Source of the DNA: a virus | DNA: 33,849 bases | Strand: one strand, 5' to 3' | IMG/VR virus record: IMGVR_UViG_3300025276_004711 | Coordinates: 1 to 33,849 of that record | In this document: positions 11,421 to 33,061 of the stretch, piece by piece | Layout: every line of letters begins with the position of its first letter | Numbering within the stretch: position 1 is the first letter of the stretch | Position numbers and translations under genes: made by a program | The notes under the pieces: generated by a model | The model's database searches: none | Told to the model about the DNA's origin: nothing | What the model saw: only the letters and a program-made list of their open reading frames with translations

Positions 11421-12014
11421 TTACTGCGGTAATTCCACTACGCCTTCAAGCTCTGGCGCACCCTCTGCTAATTCGGCTTTAATGCCAAAACGTTCAAAGT
11501 TGTCGAGCGTACTTAGGTCGATTTCTTCATCTAAATACCATTGCTGAGTCCAGCTAACCGACCACACTGCAAGGCCAAGGTCATCAATCTGTGCGCTATA
11601 CAAGTTGTCACCGCGTACCGCTTCGGCCTTACTGTAAGCGGTTGGCATGGCACCACGGCGCAGCAATAAACCCGCTAACTTTCCGGCAATGACTTCAGCA
11701 CGTTCGTCTTTCTGGTACCCAAATTGGTCAGTCGTAAAGACGTAGGCCACAAAGTTCACAGTACCTATGATGCGATTACCAATGCTCTCGTATTGGGGCA
11801 CACGTAGCGCTGCGATACGAACGCCACCATCACGGTTAGCTATCCAGCGTTTAACATCTGTGGGTGTATCAAACTTGCCGATGTGCCGTTCAACCGTTTG
11901 CACTCGATCAAGTTGTTTATCTGTGCCTTCCAGTTCAGGCTTGAGATAATTAACCACTTGCTGGCAAGCCCAAACGGTTGAGCCCACTACACTAAACGCG
12001 GGTCTATCTGTCAT
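11421..12014 (-). CDS. Mu gp37-like tail protein (DUF1834)
   Basis: 197 aa. It matches the Gp37 family, with VERHIGKFDTPTDVKRW near the start, the GGVRIAALRVPQYES region and AVWSVSWTQQWYLDEE toward the end. Its position between the tail completion gene and the sheath gene fits a neck or tail terminator role, which is inferred. It overlaps the gpG-like gene by four bases (ATGA). Confidence 0.85.
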   Translation of the reverse strand: MTDRPAFSVVGSTVWACQQVVNYLKPELEGTDKQLDRVQTVERHIGKFDTPTDVKRWIANRDGGVRIAALRVPQYESIGNRIIGTVNFVAYVFTTDQFGYQKDERAEVIAGKLAGLLLRRGAMPTAYSKAEAVRGDNLYSAQIDDLGLAVWSVSWTQQWYLDEEIDLSTLDNFERFGIKAELAEGAPELEGVVELPQ

Positions 12015-12553
12015 TGGATCAGTCCTTCAAAAAAGCTACCCAGTACGGCATAAACTTCGGTTTTGTTATCCGTGCTTAAGCCTAAGAATTCACGCTGTGG
12101 GATATTCATTAGCCGGCTAAAAGCCCCGACTGATTGATAGACAGGGAACGCCAACGCTTTACCAAATGCTTGTGTAATAAGGCGCGTATGTGCATCCACT
12201 TGAACCGCACCGCTAAAGCCGTCTTGATGCACTGCGGCGTAGGCCAGTGGCGAACCGATTCGAACTTGATTTTTTTCCACCACGAATTGGATTGAGTCCA
12301 GCAAATCTCCGTCACCTTGTAAGGGTGACTGATTGCCATGGCGAGTCTTGGCATACGCACTAGACCACTCAGCCCAAGGCTTACCATTAGGAGATGATTT
12401 CTCATCTTGAATCCTTCGCTCTGTTTGACTTTGCACTTCGGTGCCGAGGGCATCTAACAGTTCCGCTTTGTGCTTAGGATCGCCAAGGGTATCCATGAGC
12501 TGCTGATAGCGTTGCAGCTCATTGGTCCCTGTGACCTGCACACTAATCGACAT
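12011..12553 (-). CDS. G: Tail completion / virion morphogenesis protein gpG
   Basis: 180 aa of the phage virion morphogenesis family. It carries ERRIQDEKSSPNGKPWAEWS, LQGDGDLLDSIQFVV and PLAYAAVHQDGF, the diagnostic family blocks. It helps finish the tail or the head-tail joint. In Mu the G gene lies between F and I; here it sits between gp36 and gp37, with a one-base overlap to gp36, so it has been relocated. The slot it holds in Mu is filled here by the accessory pair at 15739-16433. Confidence 0.9.
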   Translation of the reverse strand: MSISVQVTGTNELQRYQQLMDTLGDPKHKAELLDALGTEVQSQTERRIQDEKSSPNGKPWAEWSSAYAKTRHGNQSPLQGDGDLLDSIQFVVEKNQVRIGSPLAYAAVHQDGFSGAVQVDAHTRLITQAFGKALAFPVYQSVGAFSRLMNIPQREFLGLSTDNKTEVYAVLGSFFEGLIQ

Positions 12554-13627: not shown

Positions 13628-13670
13628 GTTGAACTCCTTTTAAACAAGGTTTAAACCATTCAGTTGTTAA

Positions 13671-13719: not shown

Positions 13720-14619
13720 TTATGCTGTAATCATTGGTGAAACAACAATCTCAACATCGTTGAAATAGATGTTGGTGTCGCCACCTTCAATCAACATGCG
13801 GCCAATCAACTTCTTCGCAGCGGCTTCATTATCAGGACCAACAACTAACTTAGTGGCGCGTGTACCAATTGGCGTACCGTCAACCTTCTTCATCTTCATC
13901 AGCAGCTTTTTAGCGGTTGCATAGTTGGCTTCGTTCAATACTGCTTTAGAACCAATCGCCAGTTGTGGGAAAGAGAAACCGACGTTACAACGGCCATCAA
14001 CACCCGCCGCATACTTGTTATTAAACCAAGTATATTCTTCGCTCGGGTTCATGTTTTTAAACACAAATGGGCGACGGTTTTGGAACACAATAGGTTTAAG
14101 TACCTTTGTGTCATCAATAATAAACCAAGGTTCACCTGTATCAGTTGCAGGGGTGCCGACTACGTTTGTGAAAACGCTGGCTGGCGTGGTTTCTAACGGA
14201 TGGTCAGTATCAAAGTAGTTTTGGCCGTCATAACATAAGGTCGTAAAACCAGCAGCTAATAGTGGGTAAGCTAAGGTATCTGGGAAGTAGGCAACCTGAT
14301 CACCATAGTTCTGTGCAATCACACCGTACTGACCAATTTGATCATCATCTACGTTATCGCGAGAAATGGAGATTGAGCTTTCGAACGTTTTGTTTTCGAT
14401 TGAGTAGCCACGCTTGCCCATATCTGCTAGCTGACGATCACCCGTCCACTCAGCAATACCAGGTAAGTCTTTTAACCAGCCGTAGTAGTTAGCAGCGCTA
14501 GCACTTGGCACTTCGGTAGCAATCATTGACCACTGCGGTTTTGCCGCAGATAAACCTTTTGTATAGGCCGCTGACATCGTGGCCTGTAGTGCTTCTAGCA
14601 CTTGTGCTTCAGTAGCCAT
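13720..14619 (-). CDS. T: Major capsid (head) protein gpT
   Basis: 299 aa, matching Mu-like gpT in size. The N-terminus is MATEAQVLEALQATMSAAYT; YYGWLKDLPGIAEWTGDRQL and FDTDHPLETTP are conserved in this family. The protein should adopt the HK97 capsid fold and form the icosahedral head. Its start overlaps the stop of protease gene I by one base, and it is followed by a strong hairpin, consistent with high expression needs. Confidence 0.93.
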   Translation of the reverse strand: MATEAQVLEALQATMSAAYTKGLSAAKPQWSMIATEVPSASAANYYGWLKDLPGIAEWTGDRQLADMGKRGYSIENKTFESSISISRDNVDDDQIGQYGVIAQNYGDQVAYFPDTLAYPLLAAGFTTLCYDGQNYFDTDHPLETTPASVFTNVVGTPATDTGEPWFIIDDTKVLKPIVFQNRRPFVFKNMNPSEEYTWFNNKYAAGVDGRCNVGFSFPQLAIGSKAVLNEANYATAKKLLMKMKKVDGTPIGTRATKLVVGPDNEAAAKKLIGRMLIEGGDTNIYFNDVEIVVSPMITA

Positions 14620-15122
14620 TACTTAGCTCCTACGTTAAGTTGTTTTTTGGCCGCTAGGTATTCTTCTTGAGAAACACCCATCTTGCGACACATCGCCAGC
14701 TCATGTTCTTCTAGTGCTGACTCATCGGTGGTTTTTGGCAGTTTCTTCTGTGCGTTGGTCGCAATAGCTGGAGCCGAACCCACGAAGTTGTTGAACTGCT
14801 CTATGCCACCTTCAGCGCGACACATGCCAACAAACATATCTTTGTTAGCGGGTGCGACCTTGCCAGCATCAATGGCGGTTTGTACCAGTGCATCAATCTC
14901 TTTATCAGCAATGGCCTTGAGCGCAGTCTCTGCCGAAGTAGCACGGTTAAGCGCGACTTGGTGCGTCTCAATCGGAATAAACTTGTTTAAGTCCGGTGTA
15001 TTGGTGCGGTTAAGCGCAATCTGTTCTGCTTGCTTAATTGCGTTAATGGCAACAACGGCTTGTTCTGCGGTCGCATCTTCGGCAAGGCCAAGCAGATCAG
15101 TTAAAAGCTTTGGCAGCTTCAT
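14619..15122 (-). CDS. Z: Scaffold protein gpZ, from internal start in gpI
   Basis: 167 aa, in frame with gpI from Met153 (MKLPKLLTDLLGLAEDATAEQ). AGAGGA seven bases before this ATG is a strong ribosome site inside the gene. Mu also makes its scaffold Z from the 3-prime half of I. The sequence is mainly helical and charged, as expected of a scaffold that fills the prohead core and is later degraded. Confidence 0.75.
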   Translation of the reverse strand: MKLPKLLTDLLGLAEDATAEQAVVAINAIKQAEQIALNRTNTPDLNKFIPIETHQVALNRATSAETALKAIADKEIDALVQTAIDAGKVAPANKDMFVGMCRAEGGIEQFNNFVGSAPAIATNAQKKLPKTTDESALEEHELAMCRKMGVSQEEYLAAKKQLNVGAK

Positions 15123-15578
15123 TGGGTCATCCTCTTTTCTGTTAAGGGCGGGTACATCTAAATTGGGACTATTCGTTAGGCCAGCACTTTCAACGCCATA
15201 GATAACGCCTGTCTCTGCATTGTGTGAAAATGCAGGTGAGTAAAAGGCGTATTTCTTTTCCTCAATCATTTCGCGGCCATCGCCATTCCATTCAACATAA
15301 CCCCAAATTTCACCCGCGCGATTTTCTACTTTAGTAATCCAACCATAAGCAGGGGCAGGTTCGCCATTTGGCGCTTTGAGATGTGTTGAGTGCTCAACAT
15401 CGAAGGGGCGTTTTTTGCTAAAGCTGGCGACGACAGCATCAGGATTAGGGTTCATCCATGAACGGCCATCAATCCCTTGAAAGGTTCCAGAGGGGATCAT
15501 GGGTAGCCAAATGCCAGTAGCATTGTCTTCCATGGCCATCATGTTGAAGCAAAGCGCGGTGAGGGCTTTTACTGTCAT
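14619..15578 (-). CDS. I: Prohead protease gpI
   Basis: 319 aa, the Mu-like_Pro family. The N-terminal ~145 residues are the protease domain, with PFDVEHSTHLKAPNG carrying the likely catalytic His63, and EKKYAFYSPAFSHNAETG carrying the likely Ser114. The C-terminal half is the scaffold region that is also made separately (see gpZ). The start has GGAG eight bases upstream, and that site can base-pair with the leader described at 15583-15664. The enzyme should cut the scaffold and possibly the capsid during head maturation. The active-site residues are my reading, not tested. Confidence 0.9.
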   Translation of the reverse strand: MTVKALTALCFNMMAMEDNATGIWLPMIPSGTFQGIDGRSWMNPNPDAVVASFSKKRPFDVEHSTHLKAPNGEPAPAYGWITKVENRAGEIWGYVEWNGDGREMIEEKKYAFYSPAFSHNAETGVIYGVESAGLTNSPNLDVPALNRKEDDPMKLPKLLTDLLGLAEDATAEQAVVAINAIKQAEQIALNRTNTPDLNKFIPIETHQVALNRATSAETALKAIADKEIDALVQTAIDAGKVAPANKDMFVGMCRAEGGIEQFNNFVGSAPAIATNAQKKLPKTTDESALEEHELAMCRKMGVSQEEYLAAKKQLNVGAK

Positions 15579-15670: not shown

Positions 15671-15707
15671 AAAAAAAAAGCAACCGACGATAAATAACGT
15701 CGGTTGC
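15671..15707 (-). terminator. Strong intrinsic terminator after the accessory pair
   Basis: GCAACCGACG (15680-15689) and CGTCGGTTGC (15698-15707) form a perfect 10-bp stem with an eight-base loop. On the minus strand it is followed by nine T residues (15679-15671). On the plus strand a less perfect T-rich stretch follows. This separates the accessory genes from the gpI leader. Confidence 0.9.
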
Positions 15708-15738
15708 TCTAATTTGAGTTTTATTTTTTGTGACTAAA

Positions 15739-16260
15739 TTAGCTATATAAGTTGGCTTTAAACCTCTCATATCTGCCCATATGGATTTTGTTTTCATCTT
15801 CTAAATCATAAACGGTCACTAATTCGTTATTACAATGATCCATCAACTCTTTAATAATCGGTGGCTCTTCTACTTCTATAGCAATTCGCTTCGCCGTCAA
15901 CGATTTTTGTTCATAATCGTAAATGAAATCCCGCTCTGATAGTTCAAGCTCTAATTGTAAATATTTTTGCCTTAAAGAGGCATGTAGTGTGGTTTTTGAT
16001 TTAGAGTCTATCACTAGCTCTAACGTTTGTATTAAAGCTACTGCACAGGCTAACCATTTCGCCCAACCATTATCATTTTGATAAAAAGTAGCAAACGCTG
16101 CGGAGCTCATAACAAGTGATAAAGCCGTGACAAACTTGCCAAAACGGGCATAACAATTTTGCATGTGCATGTGATAGCGCACACCTAGTTGTGTATTCCA
16201 TAATAACTTCCAATGACGGTTGCAATCATCATCAGATGGTATTTGTTTTGTGTCAGTCAT
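15739..16260 (-). CDS. Two-TM protein resembling SLATT effectors (accessory)
   Basis: 173 aa. After a polar N-terminus with a helix (HWKLLWNTQLGVRYHMHMQN) come two membrane helices, about residues 43-60 and 67-84, separated by a short polar turn (QNDNGWAK). A long charged cytoplasmic helix follows (LRQKYLQLELELSERD) and then a mixed C-terminal domain. This layout resembles SLATT proteins, the two-TM effectors of nucleotide-signalling defence systems, but I cannot confirm the family. It is eight bases downstream of a proline-rich gene and followed by a strong terminator, so the two are a unit. Roles in superinfection exclusion or phage-phage competition are inferences. It is not needed for Mu growth as far as known relatives show. 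Confidence 0.7.
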   Translation of the reverse strand: MTDTKQIPSDDDCNRHWKLLWNTQLGVRYHMHMQNCYARFGKFVTALSLVMSSAAFATFYQNDNGWAKWLACAVALIQTLELVIDSKSKTTLHASLRQKYLQLELELSERDFIYDYEQKSLTAKRIAIEVEEPPIIKELMDHCNNELVTVYDLEDENKIHMGRYERFKANLYS

Positions 16261-16268
16261 GTAGCCCC

Positions 16269-16433
16269 TTATTTTTTTACGGGTGGCCTTGGTGGTGTAG
16301 CTGCACTTTGTGAAATAGTATTGGGATTATTACTAGCCTTATCAGCGTGATCATATACAGGTGTTCGGCCTTCTTGACTAGGCTGTCTCTGATTATTTGG
16401 TTTAGGTTGAGGAGGATTGTTTTTATTTTCCAT
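16269..16433 (-). CDS. Small proline-rich protein, partner of the two-TM gene
   Basis: 54 aa starting MENKNNPPQPKPNNQRQP and ending ATPPRPPVKK. It is rich in Pro, Asn and Gln and has no membrane segment; it is probably disordered. The frame is open further upstream to a TTG, but the ATG at 16433 is the better start; AGAGA lies nine bases before it. I do not recognise it. It sits first in the cassette, with the two-TM gene eight bases downstream, so it may regulate or tether that protein. Confidence 0.65.
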   Translation of the reverse strand: MENKNNPPQPKPNNQRQPSQEGRTPVYDHADKASNNPNTISQSAATPPRPPVKK

Positions 16434-16500
16434 ATTGTAAATATCTCTTGATGTAATTAAAAATTTAAAGTTTGTACTCAAAGACTACCCTAAAAATTAT

Positions 16501-16530
16501 GGTTGGCAAGCGTTCAAACGCAAGCCAACC
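16501..16530 (-). terminator. Hairpin terminator after gpF
   Basis: GGTTGGC-aa-GCG is repeated inverted as CGC-aa-GCCAACC around a six-base loop (16501-16530). On the minus strand ATAATTTTTAG follows. It ends the packaging/portal transcript and leaves the next two accessory genes needing their own promoter in the roughly 70 bases before 16433, where only weak elements are seen (TTGAGT, then AT-rich). Confidence 0.75.
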
Positions 16531-16623: not shown

Positions 16624-17403
16624 TTAAGCATCACTAGAGAGCGTTTGACGCACTCTAGCTTCTTTTTCCGATAGGTCATTGGCAAGCATGTTTTCACGTC
16701 CTTTGCCTGGGTTATAGTTCCAACCTGGATCAATCCCTTCAGGCAGTTCCTCCACTTCGCCAGTGCGCCGATTTACCCAACGCTTATTTTTACTGGCGGG
16801 TGAAGTAGTAGACACGTTACCCGAGGCGATCAACTTGTCGGCCTCGTACTGCGAGACTTGCCTTATCCAACACTTGCAGCCCCAACCATTCGGTGCCATG
16901 TGCACGTCCCACCATGGATCATCCGCAGGCAATAAAGTGTTATTCCATTTTAGATGCTCAATCCGGTGTTGCTCACTTGGCCCTAGTTGATATAGCAAAT
17001 AGGGCAAGGTGCGCTTAGTGCGTTGGATACGTTCCCATTGGCCAGCAGAGCGCGCCGTTCTCATATTAGTTTTATAAATGGTCTTTATACGGCCTTCGCT
17101 ACCCAGTTGCACCAGCTTGGTTTCGTCAGTTAATGGGTCTTGCATGGTCTGCACACCCCACCAACCCGACTTCACTAATAGCGGTTTAAGGATATCGCGG
17201 AACTGTTCAAAGGTTTGGCCGCTGGCAATCGCATCTTCGACAATTTGTTTTACGTCAACCAGTAGATCGGCGTTCATCATCTTAGCGACAGTAAAGGCAT
17301 TGGCCTGTTCTTCTTTCCACACGTCCCGAAAGTCGAAGCCAGGCTTAATGCCTTTACGCGTAAACCATGCCAACGCTTCTTTGGGTATCAAGGGCTCAGC
17401 CAT
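16624..17403 (-). CDS. F: Minor head protein gpF (Mu gp30-like)
   Basis: 259 aa, Phage_Mu_F family. It contains RIKTIYKTNMRTARSAGQWE and HIEHL-type RIEHLKWNNTLLPADDPWWD, then GWGCKCWIRQVS, the Cys/Trp-rich block that marks this family. The protein is present in few copies and associates with the portal inside the head. It overlaps the portal gene by eight bases. Between its stop and the next transcription unit is an AT-rich gap holding GTTTAAAC motifs and the hairpin at 16501. Confidence 0.9.
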   Translation of the reverse strand: MAEPLIPKEALAWFTRKGIKPGFDFRDVWKEEQANAFTVAKMMNADLLVDVKQIVEDAIASGQTFEQFRDILKPLLVKSGWWGVQTMQDPLTDETKLVQLGSEGRIKTIYKTNMRTARSAGQWERIQRTKRTLPYLLYQLGPSEQHRIEHLKWNNTLLPADDPWWDVHMAPNGWGCKCWIRQVSQYEADKLIASGNVSTTSPASKNKRWVNRRTGEVEELPEGIDPGWNYNPGKGRENMLANDLSEKEARVRQTLSSDA

Positions 17404-32326: not shown

Positions 32327-33061
32327 ATGACTTACGATGAAAAGGAACATGAAAACCATAAAGGGAACTTGGATCCTTTTGTGGAACATGCAAAAGGATC
32401 TTCTTTTTCAGAAAGACTTGGGACGGTATTAGGTAATAAAAGCGGACGAGCTTTCTCTAAAGAAATAGGTATTTCATACAGTACTTTGCACAATTATCTA
32501 TCTGGCGTTAGCTTACCAACGTTAGATAATTTGATTACCCTTGCTGAAAAAACAGGAGTATCAATAGAATGGTTAGCTACTGGTAAAGGCGATGAAATCA
32601 AAGAGGTAAAGACTTTATATAGTACGGGCCTAGATATAGAAGATTTTGCACTAATACCAGGATATAGAATTCAAGTATCAGCGGGGCATGGTGCTTTAAA
32701 TTCTGATCAACTAAAACCGAGCAGGTACTTAGCATTTAGGCGTAAGTGGTTGAAGTTTAGAGGCTTCAATGAGTCTGAGTTAGCTATTGTGTGGGCGAAA
32801 GGCGATAGCATGGAACCAACCATCCATAGCAACGATACGCTAGTGGTTCACTTAGGCCGCAATATTCCAGCAGACGGTCATATCTATATTTTCAGAAACG
32901 GTGAGGAGCTATTTGTTAAGCGGTACCAGAGCATGTTGGGAACCTGGCGCTTGATAAGTGATAATAGTTTTTACAGTGCGTTAGATGTTCCTAAACAGGA
33001 ACAGCATCAGTTTGAAGTAGTTGGCCAAGTGGTACACATAGCCAAAGACATAGGCGACTAA
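32327..33061 (+). CDS. CI/LexA-type prophage repressor (HTH + S24 peptidase)
   Basis: 244 aa. An N-terminal HTH_3 domain (about 27-85) contains GRAFSKEIGISYSTLHNYLS as its helix-turn-helix. The C-terminal domain is LexA/CI-like: the cleavage-type Ala119-Gly120 (VSAGHG), Ser161 in GDSMEPTI and Lys198 in ELFVKRYQ form the self-cleavage machinery. RecA-stimulated self-cleavage would induce the prophage after DNA damage, unlike classical Mu c, which is controlled by ClpXP and temperature. The ribosome site is weak (AAAGG about 12 bases before ATG). It is the only clear plus-strand gene. Confidence 0.93.
   Translation: MTYDEKEHENHKGNLDPFVEHAKGSSFSERLGTVLGNKSGRAFSKEIGISYSTLHNYLSGVSLPTLDNLITLAEKTGVSIEWLATGKGDEIKEVKTLYSTGLDIEDFALIPGYRIQVSAGHGALNSDQLKPSRYLAFRRKWLKFRGFNESELAIVWAKGDSMEPTIHSNDTLVVHLGRNIPADGHIYIFRNGEELFVKRYQSMLGTWRLISDNSFYSALDVPKQEQHQFEVVGQVVHIAKDIGD

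Follow-up and report, generated by a model that had tools for sequence, protein, structure and literature searches.

The question raised by this locus is what two small genes are doing between two head genes of a Mu-like phage. The window, by which the whole analysed stretch of 33,849 bases (one IMG/VR record) is meant, is Mu-like phage DNA; of the phage records searched, that of Shewanella phage vB_SspM_MuM16-2 comes closest to it (84.8% identity, covering 92% of a 15-kb query). A preliminary description, made from the letters alone, had proposed that a SLATT-like protein with two transmembrane (TM) helices and a proline-rich peptide form an exclusion or defence unit, enclosed by terminators and inserted where Mu has gene G. 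The genes concerned are the following:

16624..17403, minus strand: gpF, Mu F-like minor head protein (Phage_Mu_F, 2.9e-14), upstream border gene
16269..16433, minus strand: partner peptide of 54 aa, Pro/Asn-rich and predicted to be disordered, with a conserved C-terminal tail
16284..16316, minus strand: codons of the tail motif ISQSAATPPRP, residues 40-50 of the peptide
15739..16260, minus strand: two-TM protein of 173 aa, assigned to the SLATT superfamily from profiles, a predicted model and Foldseek; phrog_11791 (no function assigned)
14619..15578, minus strand: gpI, Mu-like head maturation protease (Mu-like_Pro, 1.4e-46), downstream border gene
12011-12553: gpG-family morphogenesis protein (Phage_tail_S, 2.4e-20)
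32327-33061: CI-type repressor gene, 16 kb from the pair

The two genes and the 8-base gap between them were confirmed. The order along the minus strand, which is the late strand, is gpF, the 54-aa gene, the 8-nt gap, the 173-aa gene and gpI, and the window pair is part of the late head operon, away from the repressor. GC content is about 37% in the cassette and mostly 45-50% in its flanks. The insertion between gpF and gpI was correctly placed before, but gene G has not been displaced: replacement of this gene was ruled out by the gpG-family protein encoded elsewhere in the window. The gene for this protein lies behind the capsid genes and not between F and I, and in relative L010 it lies ahead of the pair.

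The gpF-gpI slot was surveyed in 18 contigs with a related gpI, a number that counts near-duplicates too. It is empty in 7/18 (302-374 nt), longer but without the pair in 9/18, and occupied by the pair in 2/18, these last being the contigs of L002 and L001. No annotated gene is present in the gap of three named relatives, MuM16-2 (342 nt), Vibrio phage martha 12B12 (328 nt) and Vibrio phage 1.028.O (312 nt). The long slots without the pair (1169-2268 nt; L095-L097, L100, L102, L104-L107) contain other DNA; the products recognised where it was scanned are a tail-needle-knob protein (in L095) and a GDSL lipase (in L107). The gpF-gpI slot of this Mu-like group is a cargo site, and the search for other cargo that had been suggested for relatives did find it, together with empty slots.

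The location of the pair, flanked by head genes that share its strand, would suit two virion or lysis proteins of Mu-like phages. This reading was rejected because 16/18 slots are empty or hold other DNA and because the pair also occurs outside Mu-like phages and on non-phage DNA, and it is now highly improbable. Two results named at the outset as contrary to a defence role, conservation as structural genes in all relatives and similarity to a virion family, were both looked for, and neither was found. The two genes form a real unit, and this unit is cargo, not a structural part of Mu.

Comparison with the empty slots also gives the approximate borders of the cassette and the context of the hairpins around it:

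15712..16474, minus strand: cassette, approximate extent; DNA missing from empty-slot relatives (alignment; ends approximate)
15677..15710, minus strand: hairpin of 13 pairs followed by T9, terminator-like, phage backbone (shuffle z -6.1)
16501..16530, minus strand: hairpin of 7+4 bp with an internal loop and a short T run after it, 3' of gpF, phage backbone (shuffle z -4.7)

Enclosure of the pair by a 10-bp stem with T9 and by a 10-bp hairpin had been described. The hairpins are real and T9 is present, but the first stem has 13 pairs and the second structure is not a single 10-bp stem. Moreover, both hairpins are retained in empty-slot relatives (most clearly in L090, L091 and L098, in degraded form in L094), so they are phage backbone and bound the slot rather than the cassette; as borders of the cassette itself they were discarded. 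TTTAAAC boxes are likewise kept in the empty slots of relatives and for this reason are also backbone.

Concerning the 173-aa protein, its membership of phrog_11791 is supported by an E-value of 8.6e-24, and that of four relatives by values of 2.4e-25 to 2e-86. Hydropathy analysis gives hydrophobic segments at residues ~40-61 and 66-85, in agreement with the TM helices proposed at 43-60 and 67-84. The AlphaFold2 model, built from an alignment of 31 sequences, is all helical (pLDDT 94.5, pTM 0.85) and presents both features of the SLATT superfamily, a two-TM helical hairpin and a cytoplasmic helical part. When this model was compared with viral structures by Foldseek, the best matches were SLATT-domain proteins: eight of the first 20 bear that name (TMq 0.49-0.67, probability 1.00), with a best E of 1.4e-3 and none reaching E 0.001. 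Furthermore, hhalign against four SLATT_4 proteins gave P 5.7e-6 and a probability of 85, and the PADLOC 2TM effector model matched 15/31 members of the family alignment (best 3e-6; window protein 5.9e-4). The likeness to a SLATT two-TM effector noted from the letters thus finds backing in the PADLOC model, the confident structure prediction, Foldseek and hhalign.

The SLATT-family HMM searches that had been recommended gave a match to NCBIfam SLATT_4 (NF033632) at 3.3e-4 and 20.6 bits, though the curated cut-off is 55 bits, and Pfam SLATT_1 and SLATT_4 matched 2/31 and 1/31 members (best E 0.044 and 0.12, respectively). The protein is below all the curated SLATT cut-offs tested (NCBIfam SLATT_4, Pfam SLATT families). 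Since the model is SLATT-like and the scores stay under these cut-offs, we read the protein as one of SLATT fold belonging to a subfamily new to the profile libraries searched. Among solved structures, no match was found by sequence to E 1 or by Foldseek against the PDB to E 0.001; a repeat comparison gave Z <= 8.2, which was deemed unspecific for helical bundles. Pfam matches such as ERK-JNK_inhib were below cut-off and were treated as chance.

The SLATT superfamily was reportedly defined in a 2015 paper. The partners on record in the literature consulted are CD-NTase/SMODS, TIR, GAP1 and the reverse transcriptases DRT9/DRT10 (PMC12632851, PMC12483538, PMC9503650, PMC7159879, PMC10655114), and SLOG can be added from the name of a Pfam family. 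The 173-aa protein resembles SLATT two-TM effectors in its helical hairpin with cytoplasmic helices, in structural and profile similarity, and in its mobile and defence-type contexts. It differs from them in scoring below the curated cut-offs tested and in its partner, which is a short proline-tail protein where theirs is an enzyme. In CBASS, SLOG, TIR and DRT systems with SLATT, a signal enzyme or reverse transcriptase is adjacent, whereas the neighbours in the window are gpF and gpI. Likewise, phrog_11791 contains the SLATT member of the pair, while the peptide has no PHROG match at all. The kind of effector is known and the partner is new; no proline-rich SLATT partner is described in the titles or abstract starts among the matches listed.

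How regular this partner is was determined in SLATT-gene relatives collected from viral contigs, plasmids, phages and genomes, of which 52 remained after the removal of near-duplicates (88%). An ORF with a proline-rich end that falls within -90 to +25 nt of the SLATT start is found directly upstream in 48/52 of them, compared with 15/274 control ORFs of the same loci. These counts follow a loose proline rule, adopted once a strict rule had overlooked Vibrio-type peptides visible by eye; the strict rule gives 25/34 versus 4/153 controls in the first set and 40/52 versus 11/274 in the larger one. As for the four misses of the loose rule, L069 and L011 have a similar tail by eye, L089 ends at the contig edge, and L035 has a broken frame and no peptide. 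Left outside the 52 were L119 (a degraded SLATT frame without a proline-tail ORF), L123 (a false hit), 5'-truncated copies on Klebsiella plasmids and the later relatives L113, L118, L121 and L122, which have a proline-tail ORF by the same rules (start codons of L121 and L122 set by hand). Intergenic gaps are between -20 and +20 nt in 45/50 cases and the genes overlap in 13/50, as expected of co-translated partners. With this pairing, the earlier proposal of a two-gene unit is upheld.

The same rules were applied to 11 other SLATT-like loci that the SLATT_4 model picked out beyond this clade (4 above its cut-off, 7 weak). The tail motif described below was present in 0/11 and the proline rule was passed by 1/11, L048, which satisfies the loose rule through the end of a 190-aa ORF and the strict rule as well; the ORF ends concerned look like chance in GC-rich DNA. 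The upstream ORF of L047 was read by eye as a nucleotidyltransferase. Judged from these loci, SLATT proteins in general do not have the proline-tail peptide as a partner; it is specific to the clade of the 173-aa protein.

The peptide was described before as Pro/Asn rich and disordered, which holds, and it also carries a conserved C-terminal tail that had gone unremarked. This tail and the near-constant presence of the peptide beside the SLATT gene go beyond the preliminary description. No match to the peptide was found in Pfam, PADLOC, PHROGs or NCBIfam. Its relatives diverge over most of their length and have in common a C-terminal stretch with the motif I/V-x-N/D/E/Q-T/S...PPxP. The pattern [ILVM]x[NDEQ][TSR]x(1-4)P(x)P, which was written after inspection of the peptides, occurs in 37/50 of them, compared with a mean of 1.8 and a maximum of 7/50 in 2000 rounds of shuffling, and with a mean of 2.3 and a maximum of 9 when prolines were kept fixed; it is absent in 13/50 and in all 4 later peptides (L113, L118, L121, L122). 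The pN/pS ratio of the peptide genes is 0.02-0.53 in 10/11 pairs, those with synonymous changes (0.53 for the window versus L002), and the eleventh pair has a single non-synonymous change and nothing synonymous. These ratios and the conservation of the pair in distant genomes indicate that both genes are more than chance ORFs, and by its substitution pattern the gene of the 54-aa peptide is genuine and evolves under purifying selection. Such a short gene can be missed by annotation, as in phage TC7, where the peptide gene (L006:7806-7963) has a strong ribosome site and is unannotated, and the deposited SLATT gene start overlaps it.

A tail of this kind could also act during translation. As a ribosome-arrest leader, the peptide would stall by its proline tail at the SLATT start and so tie SLATT expression to the state of the ribosome. 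Polyproline stalling is established (PMC4176338), and the peptides would suit it in that PPP occurs within the last 45 aa of 28/50, most tails terminate within a few bases of the SLATT start and conservation lies mainly in the tail. However, a masked SLATT ribosome site was looked for and the opposite was found, with a mean openness of 0.55 versus 0.40 in controls (50 versus 94 sites; the rule for choosing control starts differed somewhat), so nothing points to a mask that stalling would lift. In 31/50 peptides a net positive charge follows the last proline, and the window tail has PP, not PPP, which also argues against arrest and makes it quite unlikely.

Regarding its distribution, the module is scattered across proteobacterial phages, plasmids and genomes. 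Outside Mu-like phages, the pair is hosted by other prophages, a Vibrio sagamiensis genome contig, a Salinivibrio plasmid, Klebsiella plasmids and rhizobial plasmids, and in some genomes and plasmids no phage genes lie alongside. Relatives of the SLATT gene are rare in genomes (3/296, 7/369 and 11/398 in three draws, each including the starting genome), and in 50,697 phage records three protein queries each matched one and the same record, TC7. No DNA-level copy of the L064 pair was found in E. coli complete genomes. The L007 protein matched 48 plasmid records, 36 of them at 80-90% identity, with coverage of roughly half the query in nearly every case; in the one Klebsiella plasmid that was opened (L114), a 5'-truncated SLATT copy lies beside transposase genes.

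A match to a CI-type repressor lies on the same strand and less than 1 kb upstream of the pair in 13/30 viral records, a count given without a chance expectation and obtained with a generic model, phrog_4, that also matches 14/14 control genomes; the match in one of the 13 (L081) is weak (3.3e-6). In the remaining viral records, the repressor match is within 2.1 kb in 5/30, elsewhere in 5/30 and missing in 7/30. A defence-type position, in line with the earlier proposal of a defence unit, is seen in a good part of the relatives. Ten upstream genes were scanned singly, and 3 encode repressors and 3 match the moron membrane protein family phrog_6521, a short distance upstream of the pair in L064, L085 and L086. 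In Rhizobium sp. C104, a caspase-family gene (97.8 bits, model cut-off 140) is located two genes upstream of the pair, and 1.4 kb separate the end of a TIR/SEFIR protein from the peptide gene that follows it in V. sagamiensis.

What the pair does can be proposed from its parts and contexts. The module, undescribed as far as the searches reach, probably lets the carrier cell shut down upon attack by another virus. More specifically, we give about an even chance to a two-gene switch, in which a membrane pore effector would be gated by the tail of its partner, giving abortive infection or exclusion. The 173-aa protein would insert in the inner membrane as a helical hairpin and assemble into a pore, as predicted for other SLATT proteins, which the literature presents as putative pores that respond to signals (PMC7159879, PMC9503650, PMC12632851); DRT10 defence also requires a SLATT protein (PMC12632851). 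The co-translated, disordered partner would use its C-terminal tail to dock on the SLATT protein, at the cytoplasmic helices, and so gate it, with the tail as the shared connector and the variable N-terminal part as the sensing part. In the resting cell the partner would hold the pore shut; an infecting phage that alters, consumes or removes it would cause the pore to open, the membrane potential would be lost and infection would be aborted. As to the direction of gating, we lean slightly towards a partner that holds the pore shut rather than one that triggers it. Pore formation, binding of the tail to the SLATT protein and the antiphage role are what we infer from these features. A read-through fold of peptide and SLATT protein (L024) gave pLDDT of about 52-70 around the motif and no confident docking.

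Among the closest known systems is the RexAB type (lambda RexAB and RexABpp of Pseudomonas putida), which also consists of two genes, for a cytosolic partner and a membrane effector. Many relatives of the pair sit just behind a CI-type repressor (the 13/30 above), which is the position of lambda rexAB, though in the window itself 16 kb lie between the two. RexA and RexB are thought to work much like the tail-gated abortive switch proposed here (PMC12894663). RexA is a DNA-binding protein and RexBpp has four predicted TM helices (PMC12894663), whereas the present partner is a 54-aa disordered peptide without profile matches and the present membrane protein has two hydrophobic segments.

Cargo near a repressor (3/10 upstream genes) or near the moron gene phrog_6521 (3/10) would equally suit superinfection exclusion without killing, in which the membrane protein would block DNA entry or the receptor of related phages and the peptide would be an assembly partner. 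This is unlikely, as the fold matches that of predicted pore effectors and the pair is also found in genomes and plasmids without adjoining phage genes.

The peptide is not the only kind of protein found with such a tail, although the two folded cases, both in distant relatives, are one example each. In L038 the motif is at the end of a 261-aa ORF with TPR repeats (TPR_12, 2.2e-30), 6 nt ahead of the SLATT start, and an internal ATG that could open a separate peptide has no visible ribosome site. In L113, on plasmid pAtS4b, ORF 1576-2499 encodes a nearly complete ribosomal protein S2 (TIGR01011, 1.5e-98, above cut-off; also the longer model PRK12311, below cut-off) with an extra proline-rich tail that lacks the motif pattern, and its stop lies 10 nt ahead of the start of a distantly related SLATT protein (SLATT_1 8.7e-7, below the family cut-off). 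Some alphaproteobacterial S2 proteins carry long tails of their own, and for this reason, together with its being a single example, the S2 case needs more members.

These fusions bear on whether the pair might be a toxin-antitoxin addiction module, built of the same parts and triggered by loss of the element, so that the gain would be maintenance of the prophage or plasmid instead of defence. The peptide gene comes first, the genes are close or overlapping, the pair is found on plasmids, and the sole peptide-less relatives among the 52 are L089 (contig end) and L035 (broken frame), all of which would agree with addiction. However, a partner that can be a TPR or S2 fusion is odd for a labile antitoxin, and a CI-type repressor upstream in 13/30 viral records is typical of exclusion genes; addiction is accordingly regarded as unlikely.

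Returning to the tail-gated switch, the fusions could be accommodated if exchangeable sensors gate one kind of SLATT pore via a shared C-terminal proline tail. Most sensors would be short disordered peptides and some would be folded, such as the TPR protein, while the S2 copy would serve as a decoy built into the system, so that a phage factor directed against the ribosome would also engage it and open the pore. This would amount to a signal-by-tail branch of SLATT immunity without a nucleotide messenger. The proposal, marked down for the absence of the motif pattern from the S2 tail, is put forward very tentatively and is improbable as a whole. A TPR or S2 protein with a proline tail would offer a direct handle on what is sensed.

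The SLATT proteins known so far are predicted to form pores that answer to nucleotide or nucleic-acid signals from an adjoining enzyme, while the regular neighbour in the present branch is a small tail partner. Should gating by the tail hold, SLATT immunity would have an additional type of input, and with two such small parts the gating step would be easy to study.

As for the expression of the pair in the window phage, no sigma-70 promoter of its own stands out above chance in the window (2 promoter-like sites versus 3.8 expected); with 16 kb between the pair and the repressor gene besides, the earlier suggestion of expression from the lysogen is unsupported here. The palindrome GTTTAAAC occurs 5 times in the window, compared with 0.7 expected (at 13649, 16552, 16583, 32297 and 33069). 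Two of these sites are in the gpF-gpI slot, one is between two other late genes and two flank the CI-type repressor gene, and the palindrome may be an operator.
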